The notes under the pieces were generated by a model. It saw nothing but the letters and a program-made list of their open reading frames with translations, made no database searches and had not been told where the DNA came from. 64,000 nucleotides of DNA, taken from the NCBI GenBank assembly GCA_025451235.1, contig JANWKT010000014.1, positions 62,001 through 126,000 on the forward strand. The letters run 5' to 3'. The position numbers were made by a program, and so were the translations under genes. This DNA comes from Flavobacteriales bacterium (lineage in GTDB: Bacteria > Bacteroidota > Bacteroidia > CAIKAF01). Below, piece by piece: positions 55,482 to 64,000 of the stretch (position 1 is the first letter of the stretch; the number at the start of each line of letters is the position of its first letter).

Positions 55482-56687
55482 ATGTATCATAACCGGCAAG
55501 CGGCCATGCCCGTTTTATTCCTCACTATTTTTATTGACCTGTTGGGTTTCGGAATTGTATTTCCTATTCTGCCCAATTATGCCAGGGAAATAGGGATTGA
55601 TGAAGCGTTGATAGGGTTCTTTGTTTTTGCGTTTGCCATTACTCAATTTTGGGCCACTCCATTCTGGGGATCTTTAAGCGATAAAATAGGCAGAAGGCCT
55701 GTTATCCTGATAAGTACCATCATTAATACCATTGCTTACTTTTCTTTTGGATTTGCTAATTCATTTGCGCTGATCATTATTTCACGGATATTATCGGGAT
55801 TTGGAAGTGGAAATATTTCAGCTGCACAGGCCTATATTGTAGACATCACTCCCCCTGAAAAAAGGGCGAAAAGCATGGGAATGATAGGGGCTGCATTCGG
55901 GCTTGGATTTATATTTGGCCCCCCTTTGGGAGGGCTGATAAAAACCTATCTGGGAATGGAATACGTTGGTTTTTTAACTTCTGCCTTATGCTTGTTGAAT
56001 TTTGTGCTCGCCTATTTTATTTTACCTGAATCATTGCAGGTCAAAGATGCTAAACGACCGCTTCAATTGATCCCTTTTATTCCTATTTTCAAAGCCATCG
56101 CAAAAAAAGGGACCAATATTGTTTTGGGGATAGGATTTATTTATACCATGGCATTTTTTATGTTCAACATTACTGCCAATATGATATGGAAGGATAAATT
56201 CAATTTCTCCGACCTGGGGATTGCATATGTATTTTCTTTTATAGGAATATGCACGGTCATTACCCAGCTTTTATTGGTCGGATGGTTTAGCAGGCGTTTC
56301 AAGGAGATTACTTTACTTTCTGTGGGTACATTATTGGTTGGCCTAAGTTTGCTAGCCTTGTGTTTGGTGCCGGCAGACCATTTTATTCCCTACGAGCTTA
56401 TTATTCTCGCGGTGCTTTCCGTGGCCAATGGAATGGTAAGGCCTACCTGCCTATCGGTCTTAAGTAAACTTACTCCGAGGAACGAACAAGGACAAGCCAT
56501 GGGAGTTTTTCATTCAGTGGGATCTGTGGCCATGGGCATAGGACCTTTACTGGCGGCACCCCTTTATTCATGGGGATGGCAACTGTATATACCTTATACG
56601 GTTGGCGGTATTCTTTTGATCGCTAATGTTTTGATTATCTTTAGGTTGAAGATTTTTTTGGGGCAAAAAAACCCCTCGTTGGTTTAA
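55482..56687 (+). CDS. MFS transporter, TetA/drug-exporter-like (DHA1)
   Basis: A 401-residue 12-helix major facilitator. Loop 2-3 carries motif A (GSLSDKIGRRPV, near residue 65), and the motif C-like GAAFGLGFIFGPPLGG follows near residue 141, which indicates an antiporter of the DHA1 group (tetracycline/multidrug exporters). The second half keeps the weaker internal copy of motif A. The substrate cannot be told. Transcribed toward the ribosomal genes but separated from rpsL by 276 bp with a separate promoter. Confidence 0.9.
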   Translation: MYHNRQAAMPVLFLTIFIDLLGFGIVFPILPNYAREIGIDEALIGFFVFAFAITQFWATPFWGSLSDKIGRRPVILISTIINTIAYFSFGFANSFALIIISRILSGFGSGNISAAQAYIVDITPPEKRAKSMGMIGAAFGLGFIFGPPLGGLIKTYLGMEYVGFLTSALCLLNFVLAYFILPESLQVKDAKRPLQLIPFIPIFKAIAKKGTNIVLGIGFIYTMAFFMFNITANMIWKDKFNFSDLGIAYVFSFIGICTVITQLLLVGWFSRRFKEITLLSVGTLLVGLSLLALCLVPADHFIPYELIILAVLSVANGMVRPTCLSVLSKLTPRNEQGQAMGVFHSVGSVAMGIGPLLAAPLYSWGWQLYIPYTVGGILLIANVLIIFRLKIFLGQKNPSLV

Positions 56688-56861
56688 GGGAACCGGCGGT
56701 AAGGTGGCAGGGCATAAAATACTTAGTACACTTCCTGCAAAACAAAAAAAATAATATACCCAGCATTTTTTTAATTATTTGATTATCAATATATTATAAA
56801 AAAACATCGAAAAGCTTTTCCTTCCAAAGCCATATGTCTAAAGCCTAATGTCTTTTTCCCA

Positions 56862-56892
56862 TTGTAATTGTTGAAAAATAATTGCACCTTTG
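56862..56892 (+). promoter_or_regulatory. Candidate rpsL promoter
   Basis: TTG at 56862-56864, 20 nt, then CACCTTTG at 56885-56892, one mismatch to TAnnTTTG. It stands about 70 bases before the rpsL ATG, giving a structured leader. Confidence 0.45.
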
Positions 56893-56896
56893 CAAC

Positions 56897-56931
56897 CCCA
56901 AAATAGGGGAAACTCCTGATGGTTATCAGGG
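56897..56931 (+). promoter_or_regulatory. Two-hairpin rpsL leader
   Basis: Downstream of the candidate promoter come CCCC-AAAATA-GGGG (56897-56910) and TCCTGAT-GGTT-ATCAGGG (56914-56931), two compact hairpins. They could be a ribosomal-protein regulatory site, but the second also belongs to the CCTGAT/ATCAGG palindrome family seen elsewhere in this window. Function unproven. Confidence 0.4.
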
Positions 56932-56963
56932 TGATTGAAAAATTAATTTAGAAGAAAAAAAGA

Positions 56964-57368
56964 ATGCCAACAATTCAGCAACTAGTAAGAAAAGGCCGTA
57001 CTGCGGTAGAGTACAAATCTAAATCGCAGGCCTTAACTTCATGTCCGCAACGCCGTGGCGTATGTACAAGGGTGTATACAACAACCCCTAAAAAACCTAA
57101 CTCAGCTTTACGTAAAGTAGCTAAAGTAAGGTTAACCAATGGTAATGAGATCATCGCCTATATTCCAGGTGAAGGTCATAACCTGCAGGAACACAGTATC
57201 GTTTTGGTACGTGGCGGCAGGGTGAAAGACTTGCCAGGTGTACGTTACCATATCGTTCGTGGAGCATTGGACACTGCCGGAGTAGACGGGCGTCGTCAAA
57301 GAAGAAGTAAATACGGAGCAAAAAAACCAAAAGGTGGTGCTCCAGCTTCAACCGGTAAAAAGAAATAA
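56964..57368 (+). CDS. rpsL: 30S ribosomal protein S12
   Basis: Essential small-subunit protein at the decoding site, 134 residues. Diagnostic blocks include [18 protein letters not shown] and the [18 protein letters not shown] loop. The lysines of both loops have the wild-type residues at the positions associated with streptomycin response. A C-terminal basic tail ([17 protein letters not shown]) is longer than in E. coli, as usual in Bacteroidota. First gene of the str operon, followed by rpsG and fusA; tufA does not follow. Confidence 0.98.
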
Positions 57369-57400
57369 TTGAATTTATTTAAAAACTTAAAAAACGCGTC

Positions 57401-57871
57401 ATGAGAAAATCGAGACCAAAGAAAAGGATCATACTACCTGATCCAAAGTTCAATGATACGTTGGTTACAAAATTTGTAAACAACTTAATGTATGATGGTA
57501 AAAAAGGTACTTCATACGAGATTTTTTACGATTCATTAGAGATCGTTGAAAAAAGAGTAGCAGACAATGCTCCTTTGGATGTTTTCAAAAAAGCATTGGA
57601 GAACGTAACACCAGCTGTGGAAGTAAGAAGCCGCCGCGTAGGGGGTGCTACTTTCCAGATCCCTCAGGAGATCCGTCCAGCCCGCCGTTTGGCTTTGGGC
57701 ATGAAATGGATGATCGTTGCTGCACGTAAACGTAATGATAAATCAATGGCCCAGAAATTAGCCAATGAGGTGGTAGCAGCTTTTAATAATGAAGGCGGAG
57801 CTTTCAAAAAGAAAGAAGATACACATAGAATGGCAGAAGCTAACAAAGCATTCTCTCATTTTAGATTCTAA
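57401..57871 (+). CDS. rpsG: 30S ribosomal protein S7
   Basis: A 156-residue 16S-binding protein that nucleates assembly of the small-subunit head. The family signatures [22 protein letters not shown] (seen in part), [13 protein letters not shown] and [14 protein letters not shown] are present, and the length is standard. It lies 32 bases after rpsL and 38 before fusA in the conserved str operon order. No anomalies seen. Confidence 0.98.
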
Positions 57872-57909
57872 TTATTTCAACAATCACATTATAAAGACAA
57901 GATAAATTT

Positions 57910-60015
57910 ATGTCACGCGACTTAAAATATACGAGAAATATAGGTATTGCTGCCCACATCGATGCCGGTAAAACCACCACCACCGAGCGTATCCTTTATT
58001 ATGCAGGTGTGAATCATAAAATTGGTGAGGTGCATGATGGTGCTGCAACTATGGACTGGATGGTACAGGAACAGGAAAGAGGTATCACCATTACTTCTGC
58101 TGCTACTACTGTATTCTGGAAATATAAAGGAGATAATTACCATATCAATATTATTGATACTCCGGGTCACGTGGACTTTACCGTTGAGGTAAACCGTTCA
58201 TTGCGTGTATTGGACGGATTGGTATTTTTATTTTCGGCAGTTGACGGGGTTGAGCCGCAATCGGAAACTAACTGGCGTTTGGCCAATAACTACAATGTAA
58301 CCCGTTTGGGATTTGTAAATAAAATGGACCGTGCCGGTGCCGACTTCTTGAACGTGTGCAAGCAGGTAAAAGAAATGTTAGGTTCAAATGCCGTTCCTTT
58401 ACAAATACCTATTGGTGCTGAAGACGATTTTAAAGGGGTGGTAGATTTGATCAACTTCCGTGGTATTGAATGGAATGAAGCTGACAAAGGAATGACCTTT
58501 AAAGAGATCCCCATTCCGGAGGACCTGGTAGAAGAGGCCAAAGAATACCGTGAAAAACTATTGGAATCGATCGCTGAGTTTGATGATAAATTGATGGAGA
58601 AATTCTTCGAAGATTCAAGCTCTATAACCGAGGCTGAAATACTAACTGCTTTACGCAAAGCGACATTGTCGGGCAAGATTGTTCCGATGTTATGCGGCTC
58701 ATCTTTCAAAAACAAGGGTGTACAAACCATGCTGGATTATGTGATGGAGTTATTACCATCTCCTATGGACCAGGAAGGTATTATTGGTACCAATCCTGAT
58801 ACGGGAGAAGAAACCATTAGAAAACCATCGGAAACGGAGCCTTTTGCAGCATTGGCATTTAAGATCGCTACCGATCCTTTTGTGGGTCGTTTATGTTTTA
58901 TCCGTGCATACTCAGGTAAATTGGATGCGGGATCCTATGTATATAATACCCGTACCGAAAATAAAGAGCGTATTTCACGTATCTTCCAGATGCATGCCAA
59001 TAAACAAAATGCCATTGAATGTATTACTGCCGGTGACATTGGTGCAGTGGTAGGTTTTAAGGATATTAAAACAGGAGATACACTGTGTGACGAGAAGCAT
59101 AAAATTGTTTTGGAATCAATGGATTTCCCTGATCCAGTAATCGGATTGGCCATTGAACCTAAAACCCAGGCTGACTTGGATAAATTGGGGATGTCGTTGG
59201 CTAAATTGGCCGAAGAGGACCCAACTTTCCGTGTACATACCGATGAAGAAACAGGTCAAACCGTTGTAAGCGGAATGGGTGAGCTTCACTTAGAGATCAT
59301 TCTTGATAGGTTGAAAAGAGAATTTAAGGTGGAATGTAACCAGGGTGCTCCTCAGGTTGCCTTTAAAGAAACCATCAATAATAAAGTATCGCACCGTGAA
59401 GTGTATAAAAAACAAACGGGTGGTCGTGGTAAATTTGCTGATATTCAGTTTACCATTGAACCGGGTGATAAAGAGAAAACAGGATTGGAGTTTGTTGATA
59501 ACGTAAAAGGAGGTAATATTCCACGTGAATTTATTCCATCTGTTCAAAAAGGATTTGCTTCAGCTATGCAAAACGGGGTATTGGCCGGCTTCCCGGTTAC
59601 TTCATTAAAAGTAACCTTGTTGGATGGTTCGTACCACGCAGTTGACTCGGATGCATTGTCGTTTGAGATCTGTGCCAAGATTGCTTACCGTGAGTCTATG
59701 GTAAAATGTAATCCTGTATTATTGGAGCCGATCATGAAAATTGAAGTGATCACTCCTGAAGAAAATATGGGGGATATTGTAGGTGACTTGAATAAGCGTC
59801 GCGGACAGATTGAAGGAATGGATAGCAGAGGGAATGCCCGTGTGGTAAAAGCAAAAGTTCCACTGAGCGAAATGTTTGGTTATGTAACCCAGTTACGTAC
59901 CATGTCATCCGGTCGTGCAACCTCTACTATGGAGTTCTCTCATTACGAACCTGCACCAAGGAACGTACAGGAAGAAGTGGTAGCCAAAGCCAAAGGCAAA
60001 AAAGTGAATGCTTAA
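57910..60015 (+). CDS. fusA: Elongation factor G
   Basis: Translocase GTPase of 701 residues. The G domain carries G1 AHIDAGKT, G3 DTPGHVDF and G4 NKMDRAGAD. Domains II-V follow in normal order, with the GMGELHLEI block of domain III, the [16 protein letters not shown] segment of domain IV and [17 protein letters not shown] in domain V. This is the standard housekeeping paralogue. It ends the str operon and is followed by two terminators. Confidence 0.98.
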
Positions 60016-60017
60016 TT

Positions 60018-60036
60018 AAAACGTACGATCGTTTTA
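60018..60036 (+). terminator. First terminator-like hairpin after fusA
   Basis: AAAACG/CGTTTT palindrome of 18-19 bases immediately after the fusA stop, weaker than the next one. Confidence 0.45.
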
Positions 60037-60048
60037 AAAATATAGTTT

Positions 60049-60092
60049 ACGACGGACATCCCGATAGCTATCGGGAGTCCGTCGTTCCTTTT
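60049..60092 (+). terminator. Strong terminator after fusA
   Basis: ACGACGGAC (60049-60057) pairs perfectly with GTCCGTCGT (60077-60085) around the TCCCGATAGCTATCGGGA core (60059-60076), then CCTTTTT. Stem of 18 bp in total with one bulge. The core is the palindrome family found at 13891, 54572 and 56914. Confidence 0.85.
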
Positions 60093-60117
60093 TATACGAA
60101 TTTGATTTATTCAATAT

Positions 60118-60846
60118 ATGAGAGTTGCACAATTTATAGGCCAATCCGGATTTACATCCCGTCAAAAGGCAAAACAGCTGATCGATGAAAAAAGGGTTAC
60201 GGTTAATGGGAAACAAGCGACACAAAGCACCAAACTCAATGAAGGTGATATTGTATTGGTGGATGGGGAGAATGTGATGGCTGGAGGCAAGCTCATTGAA
60301 AAAACGAAAATGCAAGCAACAGGTGAAGCTACATACATAGCTTATAACAAACCGGCGGGAATTATTTGCACAACTGAAAAAATTGAAGGAAATATTATTG
60401 ATGCGATTGATCATCCTGAAAAAATATTACCGGTTGGACGTTTGGATAAAGATTCAGAAGGGTTGATCATTCTTACGAACGTGGGTAAGATAATAGATAG
60501 GATCATCAATCCTAAATATCACCATGAGAAAGAGTATGTAGTAACCTTAAATTTACCGTTAAGCAATGCATTTATTAAAGCAGTTAAGGAGGGCATGGAT
60601 ATTGGAGGAGAAAAAACGGAACCTTGTGAAATACAAATTGAGCCAGGAGCAAAACGGGTTTTCAGAATTAAATTAAAACAAGGAATTAACCGGCAGATCA
60701 GAAGAATGTGCAATAAATTCGGTTATCAGGTGATCAAGCTGCAAAGGGTCCGAATTTTGAATATTCAATTGGGTAAATTGAAGCCCAGTGAATGGAGGTA
60801 TTTAACGGAGGATGAGCTGAGTGAGCTTTTGGCCCTGATACATTAA
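60118..60846 (+). CDS. rluF: 23S rRNA pseudouridine synthase RluF-like
   Basis: A 242-residue RsuA/RluB/RluF-type pseudouridine synthase. The N-terminal S4 RNA-binding domain (RVAQFIGQSGFTSRQKAKQL) spans residues 1-50. The catalytic motif GRLDKDSEGLIILTN places the nucleophilic Asp at residue 110. The C-terminal INRQIRRMCNKFGYQV and PSEWRYLTEDEL blocks match the RluF subgroup. It probably makes pseudouridine 2604 in 23S rRNA. Isolated by the terminators of the str operon on one side and the RRNH gene cluster on the other. Confidence 0.92.
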   Translation: MRVAQFIGQSGFTSRQKAKQLIDEKRVTVNGKQATQSTKLNEGDIVLVDGENVMAGGKLIEKTKMQATGEATYIAYNKPAGIICTTEKIEGNIIDAIDHPEKILPVGRLDKDSEGLIILTNVGKIIDRIINPKYHHEKEYVVTLNLPLSNAFIKAVKEGMDIGGEKTEPCEIQIEPGAKRVFRIKLKQGINRQIRRMCNKFGYQVIKLQRVRILNIQLGKLKPSEWRYLTEDELSELLALIH

Positions 60847-60971
60847 TGATTTTCTTCAGGACGTTTGGACCATTTTTGCTTTCTGGACAAAACGAGAACA
60901 TACCTTCTCCTTTTAAATCAACCATGTCACTTGTGCCCTTTGTAGCAGTGATGCAGATTTATTTTCACAGA

Positions 60972-61072
60972 TTTTTCAATTAACACTTAATAAGATTTAG
61001 CACTTTCTTCTTAACCCGGATTCATTGATCCAGGACTGCAATCTTTCAACCTTTGCTTCAAACAATATCAAT
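60972..61072. repeat. Duplicated leader, copy 1
   Basis: The 100 bases before the first RRNH gene are repeated at 61912-62014 before the desaturase. Shared blocks: TTAACAC-TAATAAGATTT, TTCTTCTTAACCC, TTCATTGAT and CAACCTTTGCTT. It includes a promoter-like TTG-N20-AACCTTTG. Confidence 0.85.
61025..61055 (+). promoter_or_regulatory. Candidate promoter in leader copy 1
   Basis: TTG at 61025-61027, 20 nt, then AACCTTTG at 61048-61055, one mismatch to TAnnTTTG, 17 bases before the RRNH gene's ATG. Conserved in the second leader copy at 61966-61996. Confidence 0.5.
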
Positions 61073-61681
61073 ATGAAAAAGCTCATCGTATTTTCTTTCC
61101 TGGTTTTTTTAACCACCATCGCAACCATTGCCCAAAGACGAAATCATCAACCACGGGTAAGAGTCAACATCCAGAACAATGGAGAACAAAAAGTATCCCA
61201 ACCTGAGTCCCAACCGACAGCATTATTCTCCGATTCATTAATGACGAATGAAGTGAACCCGTCAATGGTGAAGGACTTGCCTATAGAGGTAATAGATTCA
61301 AGCCCTGATAAGCCCATACTAAAAGAAAGCGATACCACTTTTCAACGTGTGCTTAAAAGCAAAAAAATGCCTAAAGAAAAAAACGTACCGAAAATTTTGA
61401 AGCAAAATCTTCCGAATACTAATCAGGATTTAATAGGACGGAATGTGAATAGAGTGGAGAAAAAAGATTTTAACTGGTTACTTTTCTTATTGATCACTTT
61501 GATATCCATTTTGGTCGCTGGGATCATTTTTTTTATTTTGAGTATTACTACTACTGTTTCTGTGGGATTGATAGAGCCGTTCTTAGCGATGGGCATCTCA
61601 TTAATAGTTGTAGGGCTTGTAGGTGGTTCTATTTTTTATTTTTTCGCGGCGGTTTGTGGCTCCTTGGGTATTTGTGGATAG
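61073..61681 (+). CDS. Small exported RRNH-family membrane-anchored protein 1
   Basis: About 203 residues starting MKKLIVFS, with a signal peptide ending near TIAQ (residue 21), directly followed by RRNHQPRVRVNIQ. The middle is polar (S/K/E-rich). The C-terminal 70 residues hold two to three hydrophobic helices (ITLISILVAGIIFFILS, then a second pair). The RRNH...VxVNIQ motif is shared with the proteins at 63052 and 63674 and the remnant at 61685. The ATG at 61073 matches the duplicated-leader boundary. No known domain; function unknown. Confidence 0.75.
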   Translation: MKKLIVFSFLVFLTTIATIAQRRNHQPRVRVNIQNNGEQKVSQPESQPTALFSDSLMTNEVNPSMVKDLPIEVIDSSPDKPILKESDTTFQRVLKSKKMPKEKNVPKILKQNLPNTNQDLIGRNVNRVEKKDFNWLLFLLITLISILVAGIIFFILSITTTVSVGLIEPFLAMGISLIVVGLVGGSIFYFFAAVCGSLGICG

Positions 61682-61684
61682 GAT

Positions 61685-61882
61685 ATGAAATGAACTATTT
61701 TTTTTATTGTTTCTTCTTTCTACTTCATCGGTAGCAGGGCTGCGACGGAACCATCAGAGCAAGTAAAAGTTAAAATTACGTCATGTGATATTGGGTGTCC
61801 TCTTGTCCTGATTCACTTGCGTATGATCGTTCGAGAGATGGTGCTTGTGTGGCAGCTGTTACCGTTTACTAAGAAAAAGTAA
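61685..61882 (+). pseudogene. Decayed RRNH-family gene
   Basis: Between RRNH gene 1 and the duplicated leader, the DNA translates in pieces as LFFLLFLLSTSSVAG, then LRRNHQSK (stop), then, one base shifted, VKVKITS. This is the same order as a signal peptide followed by RRNHxxxVxVxI in the intact family members. A further frameshift separates the nearby ATG (61685) from the hydrophobic part. It looks like a recently decayed family copy with at least two frameshifts. Not a functional gene. Confidence 0.6.
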
Positions 61883-61911
61883 CGTTCTTGAAACGATTTT
61901 ACACGTTTGTA

Positions 61912-62014
61912 TTTTTTCAGTTAACACATAATAAGATTTGGTTTTTTCTTCTTAACCCAGGTTCATTGATTGATGCCTTCAAACTCTCAACCTTTGCTTT
62001 CAAATAATTCATGT
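61912..62014. repeat. Duplicated leader, copy 2
   Basis: Copy of 60972-61072, here before the desaturase gene, with the same blocks and the same promoter-like TTG-N20-AACCTTTG at 61966-61996. The ATG at 62015 occupies the equivalent position to 61073. The reading frames of the two leaders are not the same, so the shared region is noncoding. Confidence 0.85.
61966..61996 (+). promoter_or_regulatory. Candidate promoter for the desaturase gene
   Basis: TTG at 61966-61968, 20 nt, then AACCTTTG at 61989-61996, 18 bases before the desaturase ATG. Identical spacing to 61025-61055. Confidence 0.5.
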
Positions 62015-62998
62015 ATGAAAAAACGACCAGAATTCACGTATGTGGAAACAGGAGAACCACACGCTATCAGGCGAAGAGAGATCCTGACTAAATATCCTCA
62101 GATCAGAAAGCTATTTGGTTACGACCGGAGACAAGCTCTTGTAACCATATTGGTGATCCTTGCTCAATTGACCCTTGCTTATTTTATTCCACGTTTATTT
62201 CCATCAGTGAGTCCTTTGGGAAAATGGACATTGGTCATTCTATCTGCCTTATTTATTGGTTCGATATTGAACCATTGGTTGTCTATGGCCATTCATGAAA
62301 CAGCACATAACCTCATGTTCAAAAAGAAAATAAACAATCAGATCCTGGCCATATTAGCCAACATTCCGTTGTTGGCTCCTTTTGCCATGAGTTTTCATCG
62401 TTATCATTTGAATCACCATCAACATTTGGGAGTGGATGAAAAAGACCGGGATCTACCACATACCTGTGAAGCCAAATGCATAGATAATAAACCTGTATTA
62501 AAAGGAACCTGGCTCATCTTCAACCATTTTTTTTACCTGATCAGAGGTGTCACCTTCGCCAAGAAGCCCAACAAGCCTGAATTGATTAACCTGGTGGTTA
62601 TTATTGCGACCACTCTTTTAATTGTTATCACCATGGGCTGTGCAAGCACTATGTATCTGTGGCTTTCAACCGTGATCGGATTAAGCTTTCATCCGGTAGC
62701 TGCACATTTCATTCACGAACATTATACTTTCTCACCGGGGCAGGAAACCTTTAGTTATTATGGTCCATTAAATAAAGTAACTTTTAATGTTGGGTATCAT
62801 AACGAACACCATGATTTTATGAACATACCTGGGAGCAGAGTACCTAAAGTAAAAGAAATGGCTCCTGAATATTACGAGAAACTGGTGAGCCATCAATCAT
62901 GGACATGTGTATTGGTTGAATTCGTGTTCAGAAAGGATATGGGTTTAAAGAGCAGGATAGTGAGAACGCAGGAGGACTTTGATAAGTACAAGCACTAA
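62015..62998 (+). CDS. Sphingolipid delta-4 desaturase (DEGS1/DES1)-like protein
   Basis: A 327-residue membrane desaturase. It opens with the family's N-terminal signature (FTYVETGEPHAIRRREIL near residues 7-24). Three histidine boxes follow: HETAH at 94-98, HLNHH at 131-135 and HNEHH at 262-266, with HFIHEHY near 231-237. YYGPLNKVTFNVGYHNEHHD and the closing APEYYEKL region match the eukaryotic dihydroceramide delta-4 desaturases as I recall them. It should add a 4,5 double bond to a long-chain base or ceramide. Upstream in-frame ATGs exist (61970) but the duplicated leader supports 62015. A 53-base gap follows to the next RRNH gene. Confidence 0.88.
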   Translation: MKKRPEFTYVETGEPHAIRRREILTKYPQIRKLFGYDRRQALVTILVILAQLTLAYFIPRLFPSVSPLGKWTLVILSALFIGSILNHWLSMAIHETAHNLMFKKKINNQILAILANIPLLAPFAMSFHRYHLNHHQHLGVDEKDRDLPHTCEAKCIDNKPVLKGTWLIFNHFFYLIRGVTFAKKPNKPELINLVVIIATTLLIVITMGCASTMYLWLSTVIGLSFHPVAAHFIHEHYTFSPGQETFSYYGPLNKVTFNVGYHNEHHDFMNIPGSRVPKVKEMAPEYYEKLVSHQSWTCVLVEFVFRKDMGLKSRIVRTQEDFDKYKH

Positions 62999-63051
62999 TT
63001 CACAACATTGATTAAATAACGATTCATTCTATACTAAACAAAATTTTTAAA

Positions 63052-63648
63052 ATGAAAATTACATTATTCCTTTTGATTGTACTTTCTGCTCTGCCGGTTG
63101 TAGCGCAGCGACGTAACCACCATCTACGGGTAAAAGTGAATATCCAAGCCCAGACACCAAATTCCCTGAATGGGGATACGAATACCCTTGAAGTTGCTGT
63201 GACCGAGTCTATGATTGCGCAGCCGGTATTACCTGTTGGCTACCTTGATTCAACAAATCAAAATTTCACAAGCATTGCTTCTGGTCCCGAGGTTTTTACC
63301 ACTTCAAAAAGGTTTCAGTATCCTGCATCCGAAGTGGATACTAAAAATGTGGCCGATAGAAAAACGCCATTTCAGATATTGTCGCTGGTTCCTGCAAAAA
63401 GCTTGCACAGAGCACCGCAACAAATCATGGATATAAAAAAAGTGAACACATTCGGTGATGCTTTGCTGATGGTATTGCTCATCCTGGCGTCATTGTTTGT
63501 CATCGCTGGAATAGTGTTTCTTTTATTGGTTACCTGTGCCGGGTTTTTAGGGGTTTATATATCGTTGATGTATGCTTTTATAGGGACTGCCTTGTCCACA
63601 GCTCTGGCAGCCTTTGTTGTTTATTTTATAGTGCTTGCCACTACTTAA
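63052..63648 (+). CDS. Small exported RRNH-family membrane-anchored protein 2
   Basis: A 198-residue protein with the same plan as the gene at 61073: signal peptide ending at PVVAQ (residue 19), then RRNHHLRVKVNIQ, a polar middle (about 35-125), and three hydrophobic C-terminal segments (VLLILASLFVIAGIVFLLL and two more). The C-termini of the two genes are similar in hydropathy but not in sequence. It probably follows the desaturase in one transcript; no clear promoter lies in the 53-base gap. Function unknown. Confidence 0.75.
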   Translation: MKITLFLLIVLSALPVVAQRRNHHLRVKVNIQAQTPNSLNGDTNTLEVAVTESMIAQPVLPVGYLDSTNQNFTSIASGPEVFTTSKRFQYPASEVDTKNVADRKTPFQILSLVPAKSLHRAPQQIMDIKKVNTFGDALLMVLLILASLFVIAGIVFLLLVTCAGFLGVYISLMYAFIGTALSTALAAFVVYFIVLATT

Positions 63649-63673
63649 TATAAATGAATTAAAAATAATTTTT

Positions 63674-64000
63674 ATGATGAATAAAATTAAAATAAGTTTT
63701 GTCCTTTGTATGTCCATTCTTTTGGTAAGCCAGAACTATGCACAAACTCAATTCTATAAACTACCAAGAGTAAGGGTTGATAAAACCCATCATACAGAAA
63801 ATGAAGTAAAGAACACTCCATCGATCAGCCTCAGGAAGGATAAAAAAACAGTTAGTAGCGTTCAATTTTCTGTAGCCCCTAAAGATTCACTCATCCATGA
63901 AATAAAAGAAGCAGTTGTTTTGCAGGAAGTCGATAGATCGGATCCTGATAAATTATTGGTGAAACCCATTAATAGCAAACGCAAAAATACAGTGGATGGA
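63674..64000 (+). CDS. RRNH-type exported protein 3, cut by window end
   Basis: Open reading frame from ATG at 63674 to the last base (109 codons). Signal peptide ending near NYAQ (residue 24), then a PRVRVDK motif equivalent to RVRVNIQ, and a polar region including DPDKLLVKP, which resembles SPDKPILK in the first family member. The anchor region lies beyond the window. It follows the preceding RRNH gene by 25 bases and is probably cotranscribed. Function unknown. Confidence 0.7.
   Translation, partial: MMNKIKISFVLCMSILLVSQNYAQTQFYKLPRVRVDKTHHTENEVKNTPSISLRKDKKTVSSVQFSVAPKDSLIHEIKEAVVLQEVDRSDPDKLLVKPINSKRKNTVDG

Follow-up and report, generated by a model that had tools for sequence, protein, structure and literature searches.

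The window (the whole 64,000-nucleotide stretch of DNA that was analysed) ends within a gene cluster lying between fusA and rpsJ. The cluster holds four intact genes of what is here called the RRNH family (R1 to R4), a desaturase gene, two similar leader sequences and, directly after R1, a short decayed relative of R2 (Table 1). The two genes are 14 kb apart (window position 60016 to L009:14027), and the interval also carries a gene for an IS1-type transposase (L009:10901-11782, PF03400). In 10 of the 17 genomes compared, no more than about 200 bases separate the end of fusA from that of rpsJ; G002 has them on different contigs, rpsJ of G001 was unmatched, and in four genomes only one part was matched. 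The desaturase scores 85.9 bits against PF00487 (cut-off 29.7) and 57.1 bits against PF08557 (cut-off 23), a combination that identifies it as a putative sphingolipid Delta4-desaturase (DES). The best of its relatives at the 26 loci recovered in a scan of genome contigs, found in Aureispira-type and other MAGs, are 50-52% identical, and there is no close sister. RRNH genes were seen beside such foreign desaturases neither in four contexts (L096, L053, L054, L055) nor in a profile search of 101 records, where the best other match had an E value of 0.85 (L098).

Table 1. Features of the RRNH/desaturase cluster and of the second box locus (positions without prefix are those of the window)
Feature	Position	Strand	Basis
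Leader 1, predicted promoter of R1	60972-61058	+	83% identical to leader 2 over 87 bp; composite box
Leader 1, palindrome TTAACC-CG-GATTCA	61011-61024		
Leader 1, TTG followed by 20-base spacer	61025-61027		
Leader 1, -7-like AACCTTTG	61048-61055		
R1, intact RRNH-family gene, 202 aa	61073-61681	+	ORF, alignment, family match E 7e-45
Remnant, 5' fragment of R2-like gene	61685-61777	+	Peptides, frameshift-tolerant and DNA alignment
Spacer	61778-61912	none	No family likeness, Rfam match or terminator-like site
Leader 2, predicted promoter of desaturase	61913-61999	+	87-bp identity to leader 1; composite box
Leader 2, palindrome TTAACC-CA-GGTTCA	61952-61965		
Leader 2, TTG followed by 20-base spacer	61966-61968		
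Leader 2, -7-like AACCTTTG	61989-61996		
Desaturase, 327 aa, FA_desaturase and Lipid_DES	62015-62998	+	PF00487, PF08557 over cut-off
R2, intact RRNH-family gene, 198 aa, closest to remnant	63052-63648	+	ORF, alignments
R3, intact family gene, running past window end	63677-64000 (L009:3678-4298)	+	Alignment
R4, family gene after R3, beyond window	L009:4312-4962		Alignment
Crp-like protein gene, C17	L010:8245-8826 (G000:C17:230244-230825)		PF00027, 30.8 bits (cut-off 27.5)
Second box locus of this genome, C17	L010:5361-15817		Box sites, domain matches

The RRNH family was defined from 14 proteins of about 200 aa overall. At the N-terminus a signal peptide precedes the motif [RK]xx[HY].PR[IV]KV (R-x-x-H..PR-[IV]-K-V); in R1 the signal peptide is followed by RRNHQPRVRV, a linker and a hydrophobic C-terminal region. 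R1-R4 and two genes at C17 have in common a signal peptide or lipoprotein signal, the RRNH..PRVKV motif, a variable linker and a hydrophobic C-terminus. With signal peptides and membrane spans assigned by eye, the family would consist of small envelope proteins, probably with two membrane spans; no Pfam or NCBIfam model scored over its cut-off in the six members scanned. A search of 40 genomes with the 14-member profile gave 18 matches in this genome (G000) and 13 in G001, which belongs to the same genus and is 77% complete. The other 38 genomes had 0-4 matches each, those in some other families being weak (E 1e-8 to 2e-4), and only 13 of the 40 had any. By these counts the family is copy-rich and expanded in this genus. 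R1 and R2 share 23% protein identity, and a tree built from 30 members of the family does not group R1-R4 together (4 changes; such a clade in 0% of bootstrap trees), although all four are flagged as long branches, so that the branching order among them is unreliable. Given the low R1-R2 identity and the ungrouped long branches, the tandem array is apparently not of recent origin. Elsewhere, pairs of RRNH-family genes adjoin a phosphoglycerate mutase-like gene (assigned by eye; L014:7277-9405, L011:4724-6960), a conserved neighbourhood seen in both G004 and G001.

The remnant starts 3 bases past the R1 stop codon (61679-61681) with an ATG in frame 1, which meets a TGA (61691-61693) straight after Met-Lys. 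LFFLLFLLSTSSVAG and LRRNHQSK follow, contiguous and both in frame 2, which is closed by a TAA at 61764-61766, while VKVKITS is read in frame 1, as the ATG is. There is thus a +1 shift within the signal-peptide part and a -1 shift after RRNHQ. All three peptides had been reported to occur in order and in different frames; they are present, but the first two share one frame and only VKVKITS differs. The supported sequence comprises 93 bp, equivalent to about the first 31 codons of R2, and displays the signal peptide and motif of the family across the two frameshifts. The linker and hydrophobic C-terminal region are absent, the remaining ~500 bases of an R2-like gene are missing, and the remnant is therefore a fragment rather than a member gene. 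Relative to the intact homologue it carries the disabling lesions of a pseudogene (the TGA at 61691, the +1 and -1 shifts, and truncation), and no promoter box belongs to it.

A decayed copy extending over 61685-61882 had been proposed, of which only the part up to 61777 is supported. The sequence from 61778 to 61912 shows no similarity to the RRNH family at the DNA or protein level: its scores against residues 36 to the end of R1-R4 were reached by 48 to 193 of 200 shuffles. When the 124 bases from 61778 were searched against the genome, only the sequence itself and chance-level matches were returned, the nearest other being 28 bases long (E 0.038). A Kazal-domain remnant in 61778-61882, suggested by cysteines seen by eye in two frames, was rejected; the genome has no Kazal_2 match over cut-off, its single match (E 0.0087) lying elsewhere and under the cut-off.

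Similarity of the remnant to the family was assessed by a frameshift-tolerant alignment of 61681-61912 against family N-termini, with 1000 dinucleotide shuffles as the control. The score against R2 was 60 (shuffle mean 21.5, maximum 40), against R1 53 (shuffle maximum 37) and against R4 38, none of which was reached by any of the 1000 shuffles. Against R3 it was 21, a value reached by 786 of 1000 shuffles, i.e. no similarity. Aligning the frames with the intact members, the check that had been suggested, thus gives likeness above chance for R1, R2 and R4 and none for R3. With intact genes excluded and both strands considered, the remnant is the top-scoring place in the window for both R1 and R2, the next unrelated places scoring 40 and 41, respectively. 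Among 18 family N-termini compared (15 from this genome, 3 from other genomes), R2 was best and R1 second. At the DNA level, the alignment to R2 scores 60, above the maximum of 42 in 500 shuffles, and contains 63 identical positions, 28 differences and 2 gap columns (63/91, or 69% identity). The DNA scores for R1 (35.5) and the C17b copy (35.0) were reached by 5 and 0 of 500 shuffles, and those for R3, R4 and C17a by 93, 26 and 107.

The weakness of the comparison is that the remnant has only 31 codons, half of which encode a hydrophobic, low-complexity signal peptide, and a chance likeness built from a hydrophobic stretch and a basic tetrapeptide has to be considered. On the core (QRRNH...VKVNI) alone, R2 scores 34, the same as one chance place, and R4 does no better than chance places; 1 of 1000 shuffles reaches the R4 score. 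The case therefore rests on the core and signal peptide together, and for these no shuffle reaches the result for R1, R2 or R4, the DNA similarity to R2 exceeds all 500 shuffles, and the parts lie in the expected order on the expected strand within a cluster of family genes. Coincidence is accordingly judged extremely improbable. Scarcely more credible is that assembly or base-calling errors mask an intact gene. One of the shifts is near a homopolymer (a run of eight T), but a few single-base errors cannot produce two shifts, an in-frame TGA and a loss of ~500 bases before leader 2. By its lesions and alignments, the remnant is a true but ordinary pseudogene fragment, about half as long as had been claimed. 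In its frameshifts, stops and truncation beside intact paralogues it resembles, and is no different in kind from, any bacterial pseudogene of a paralogous family; the one difference concerns the family itself, of which the six members scanned match no Pfam or NCBIfam model over cut-off.

The remnant does sit between the two duplicated leaders, as the earlier note stated. Its placing between two functional copies holds upstream, where R1 is adjacent, but downstream come leader 2 and the desaturase, and only then R2. The explanation favoured here, jointly with the promoter and regulator reading given below and at a probability of roughly 0.8, is that the remnant is a dead piece from the 5' end of a gene like R1 or R2. 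As it is most akin to R2, an older order of R1 followed by an R2-like gene is suggested, and the ancestral gene was probably once the second cistron of such an operon. The body of the gene would have been lost as the leader 2-desaturase unit came in, or by plain deletion, and any transcript of what is left would form the end of the R1 message. Since the gene body was not found, however, a complete gene may never have existed here. It could have been born dead, by partial duplication of the 5' end of R2 as the leader 2-desaturase unit settled between R1 and R2. This would be a variant of the favoured explanation and is compatible with it. The nearest copy, R2, stands directly after the desaturase and no trace of a gene body exists in 61778-61912, but no direct repeat marks the end of a duplication (with the settings used, a search of 56000-64000 returned only the leader pair), and 69% DNA identity to R2 makes the event old either way; an origin by partial duplication is considered possible rather than probable.

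Two further claims, that the decay is recent and that it is direct evidence of family birth and death, were not upheld. The former lacks support, given that the fragment matches its nearest copy at 69% of the aligned DNA positions, that R1 and R2 are distant and that R1-R4 are long separate branches. For the latter, a sister genome with an intact orthologue had been proposed as the test, and none was found: G001, the sole genome of the same genus compared, has no RRNH/desaturase cluster at its fusA locus. There, the gene downstream of fusA belongs to the beta-lactamase family and has a secretion tail; the next two are 67% and 65% identical to the pair that follows the cluster here. With the cluster absent from this site, there is no orthologue with which the remnant can be compared. 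This absence does not argue against decay.

Leaders 1 and 2 share a composite pattern, TTAACC-N2-GGTTCA followed by TTG-N20-nnnnTTTG. Transcription is predicted to start near 61060 for leader 1 and near 62001 for leader 2, leaving 13-14 bases ahead of the start codons of R1 (61073) and the desaturase. From the fixed 20-base spacing between TTG and the -7-like box, and with the start sites being predicted, the palindrome would be centred at about -42.5. Crp/Fnr proteins act as class II activators from about this place, a class II operator being a palindromic site centred near -41.5. By this predicted architecture the leaders read as duplicated promoters of the Bacteroidota type with an operator-like box, and neither gene remnants nor transcribed leaders. 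That they are instead RNA elements (a riboswitch or attenuator) might be argued from their conservation over 87 bp, which goes beyond the box alone. Such an element would have only the 13-14 bases between predicted start and ATG to occupy, no Rfam match was found up to E 1 (60500-63200), and the part common to the C17, G002 and G077 examples described below is just the palindrome at its fixed spacing to the -7 box, so this alternative is regarded as very unlikely. General scans of 60840-63060 were uninformative, giving 10 promoter-like sites of the sigma-70 type where shuffles gave 6.5 +- 2.5, and 2 terminator-like sites where they gave 1.7 +- 1.3.

The box is highly restricted in distribution. 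Across the genome (4.28 Mb) there are eight sites that differ from TTCTTAACCCAGGTTCAT at no more than 2 positions, two at the present locus and six in one C17 stretch; allowing 3 mismatches adds seven sites, two of them in the same stretch, against three for a backward control pattern. Behind each of the seven promoter-proximal boxes come TTG, a 20-base spacer and a -7-like box, which reads nnnnTTTG except in one promoter, where ATTG replaces TTTG. They front R1, the desaturase at 62015 and five genes or gene pairs at C17: a second desaturase, an FAD-dependent oxidase, an RRNH-family lipoprotein pair, a TonB receptor and a lipoprotein of 69 residues (the last assigned by eye). In three of the C17 promoters the box is doubled by another lying exactly 31 bp upstream of it, a distance of about three helical turns. 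In 100 genomes, the composite pattern box-N24-TTTG, which was derived from G000, has nine matches in three genomes (seven in G000 and one each in G002 and G077), and the control pattern none. The C17 stretch as a whole carries genes for a desaturase, an FAD oxidase, the Crp-like protein, two RRNH-family lipoproteins, a TonB receptor, a secreted esterase and a small lipoprotein. Two of its boxes (L010:15468-15546) lie back to back on opposite strands, with a third 31 bp on, and the minus-strand one (C17:237470) faces no obvious gene.

The likeliest regulator of the box promoters would be the Crp-like protein encoded at C17. It has a cyclic-nucleotide-binding-like domain (PF00027, 30.8 bits here and 36.3 bits in the G002 orthologue), and its helix-turn-helix is a sub-threshold match (HTH_3, 15.4 bits, E 0.019, cut-off 23). 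The best matches to the regulator (E up to 1e-38) occur in five genomes, G000, G025, G002, G089 and G077. Composite boxes are present in three of these five and in 0 of 95 others (2 of 4 against 0 of 95 when G000 is left out). In G002, G077 and G025 the regulator orthologue (63%, 39% and 63% identity) has a box immediately on its 3' side, which in G002 precedes a gene of the NAD-dependent epimerase family and in G077 a YiaAB-domain gene. The G025 box has one mismatch and is without TTTG at the right distance. Of 30 loci scanned, 4 had a box with no more than one mismatch, G000 itself among them. The box could belong to some other regulator, since this genome has further Crp-like genes (C7, C14) and the two relatives in G089 (55% and 47%) have nothing better than 4 mismatches nearby, but the association with the orthologue in three other genomes (families f1, f11, f53), and the confinement of composite boxes to genomes with the best regulator matches, make this unlikely. 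Weaker boxes (TTAACATAGGTTCA and similar) were seen 3' of more distant Crp-like genes (L167:2081, L176:2078, L168:1373), hinting that the operator type may be older than this genus. A desaturase gene is found near the G002 regulator, and on two Aureispira-type MAG contigs a Crp-like gene (L054:1262-1846, L055:11144-11719) comes directly after a relative of the 62015 desaturase.

If the Crp-like protein is indeed the regulator, leader 1 would drive R1 together with the dead fragment, leader 2 would drive an operon of the desaturase, R2, R3 and R4, and both would switch together with the C17 genes. The putative binding sites would then delimit a Crp-type regulon of two desaturases (one sphingolipid Delta4-type), a TonB receptor and RRNH-family proteins. 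At a guess from these targets, the signal sensed may relate to membrane lipid or the envelope. The fuller proposal, held to be about as likely as not, is that this is one joint programme of lipid desaturases, TonB receptor and RRNH proteins under one regulator and a -42.5 operator; the RRNH proteins would then take part in the remodelling of membrane lipids, and the fragment would be a component that the programme has lost. No such Crp-type regulon was met in the literature searched. The fragment alone adds just another decayed paralogue. The promoters beside it are of more value: they offer a first functional lead for an unnamed family of envelope proteins, namely likely co-regulation with lipid desaturases, as well as a candidate regulator-operator pair in a Bacteroidota-type bacterium.

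The promoters and the putative regulator can be set beside known systems. In the excerpt of PMC9723704 drawn on here, sigma-A promoters of Flavobacterium have a -7 consensus TAnnTTTG at -12 to -5. The -7 boxes of G000 are alike, agreeing at five of the six fixed positions in six of the seven promoters and at four in the seventh; every one therefore differs at one or two fixed bases, and the 20-base spacer to TTG is a further difference from the promoters as given in that excerpt. The Crp protein of Bacteroides thetaiotaomicron (BT4338), according to the portion of PMC3878776 used, recognises wwwTATGTTnTAnAACATAwww at sugar genes. It is likewise a Crp-family protein of the Bacteroidota with a palindromic operator, identified by comparative genomics, and a site beside its own gene (PMC3878776). 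By comparison with that portion, the candidate operator in the present case is TTAACC-N2-GGTTCA, the genes behind it are those for desaturases, a TonB receptor and RRNH-family proteins, and the box near the regulator gene is on its 3' side.
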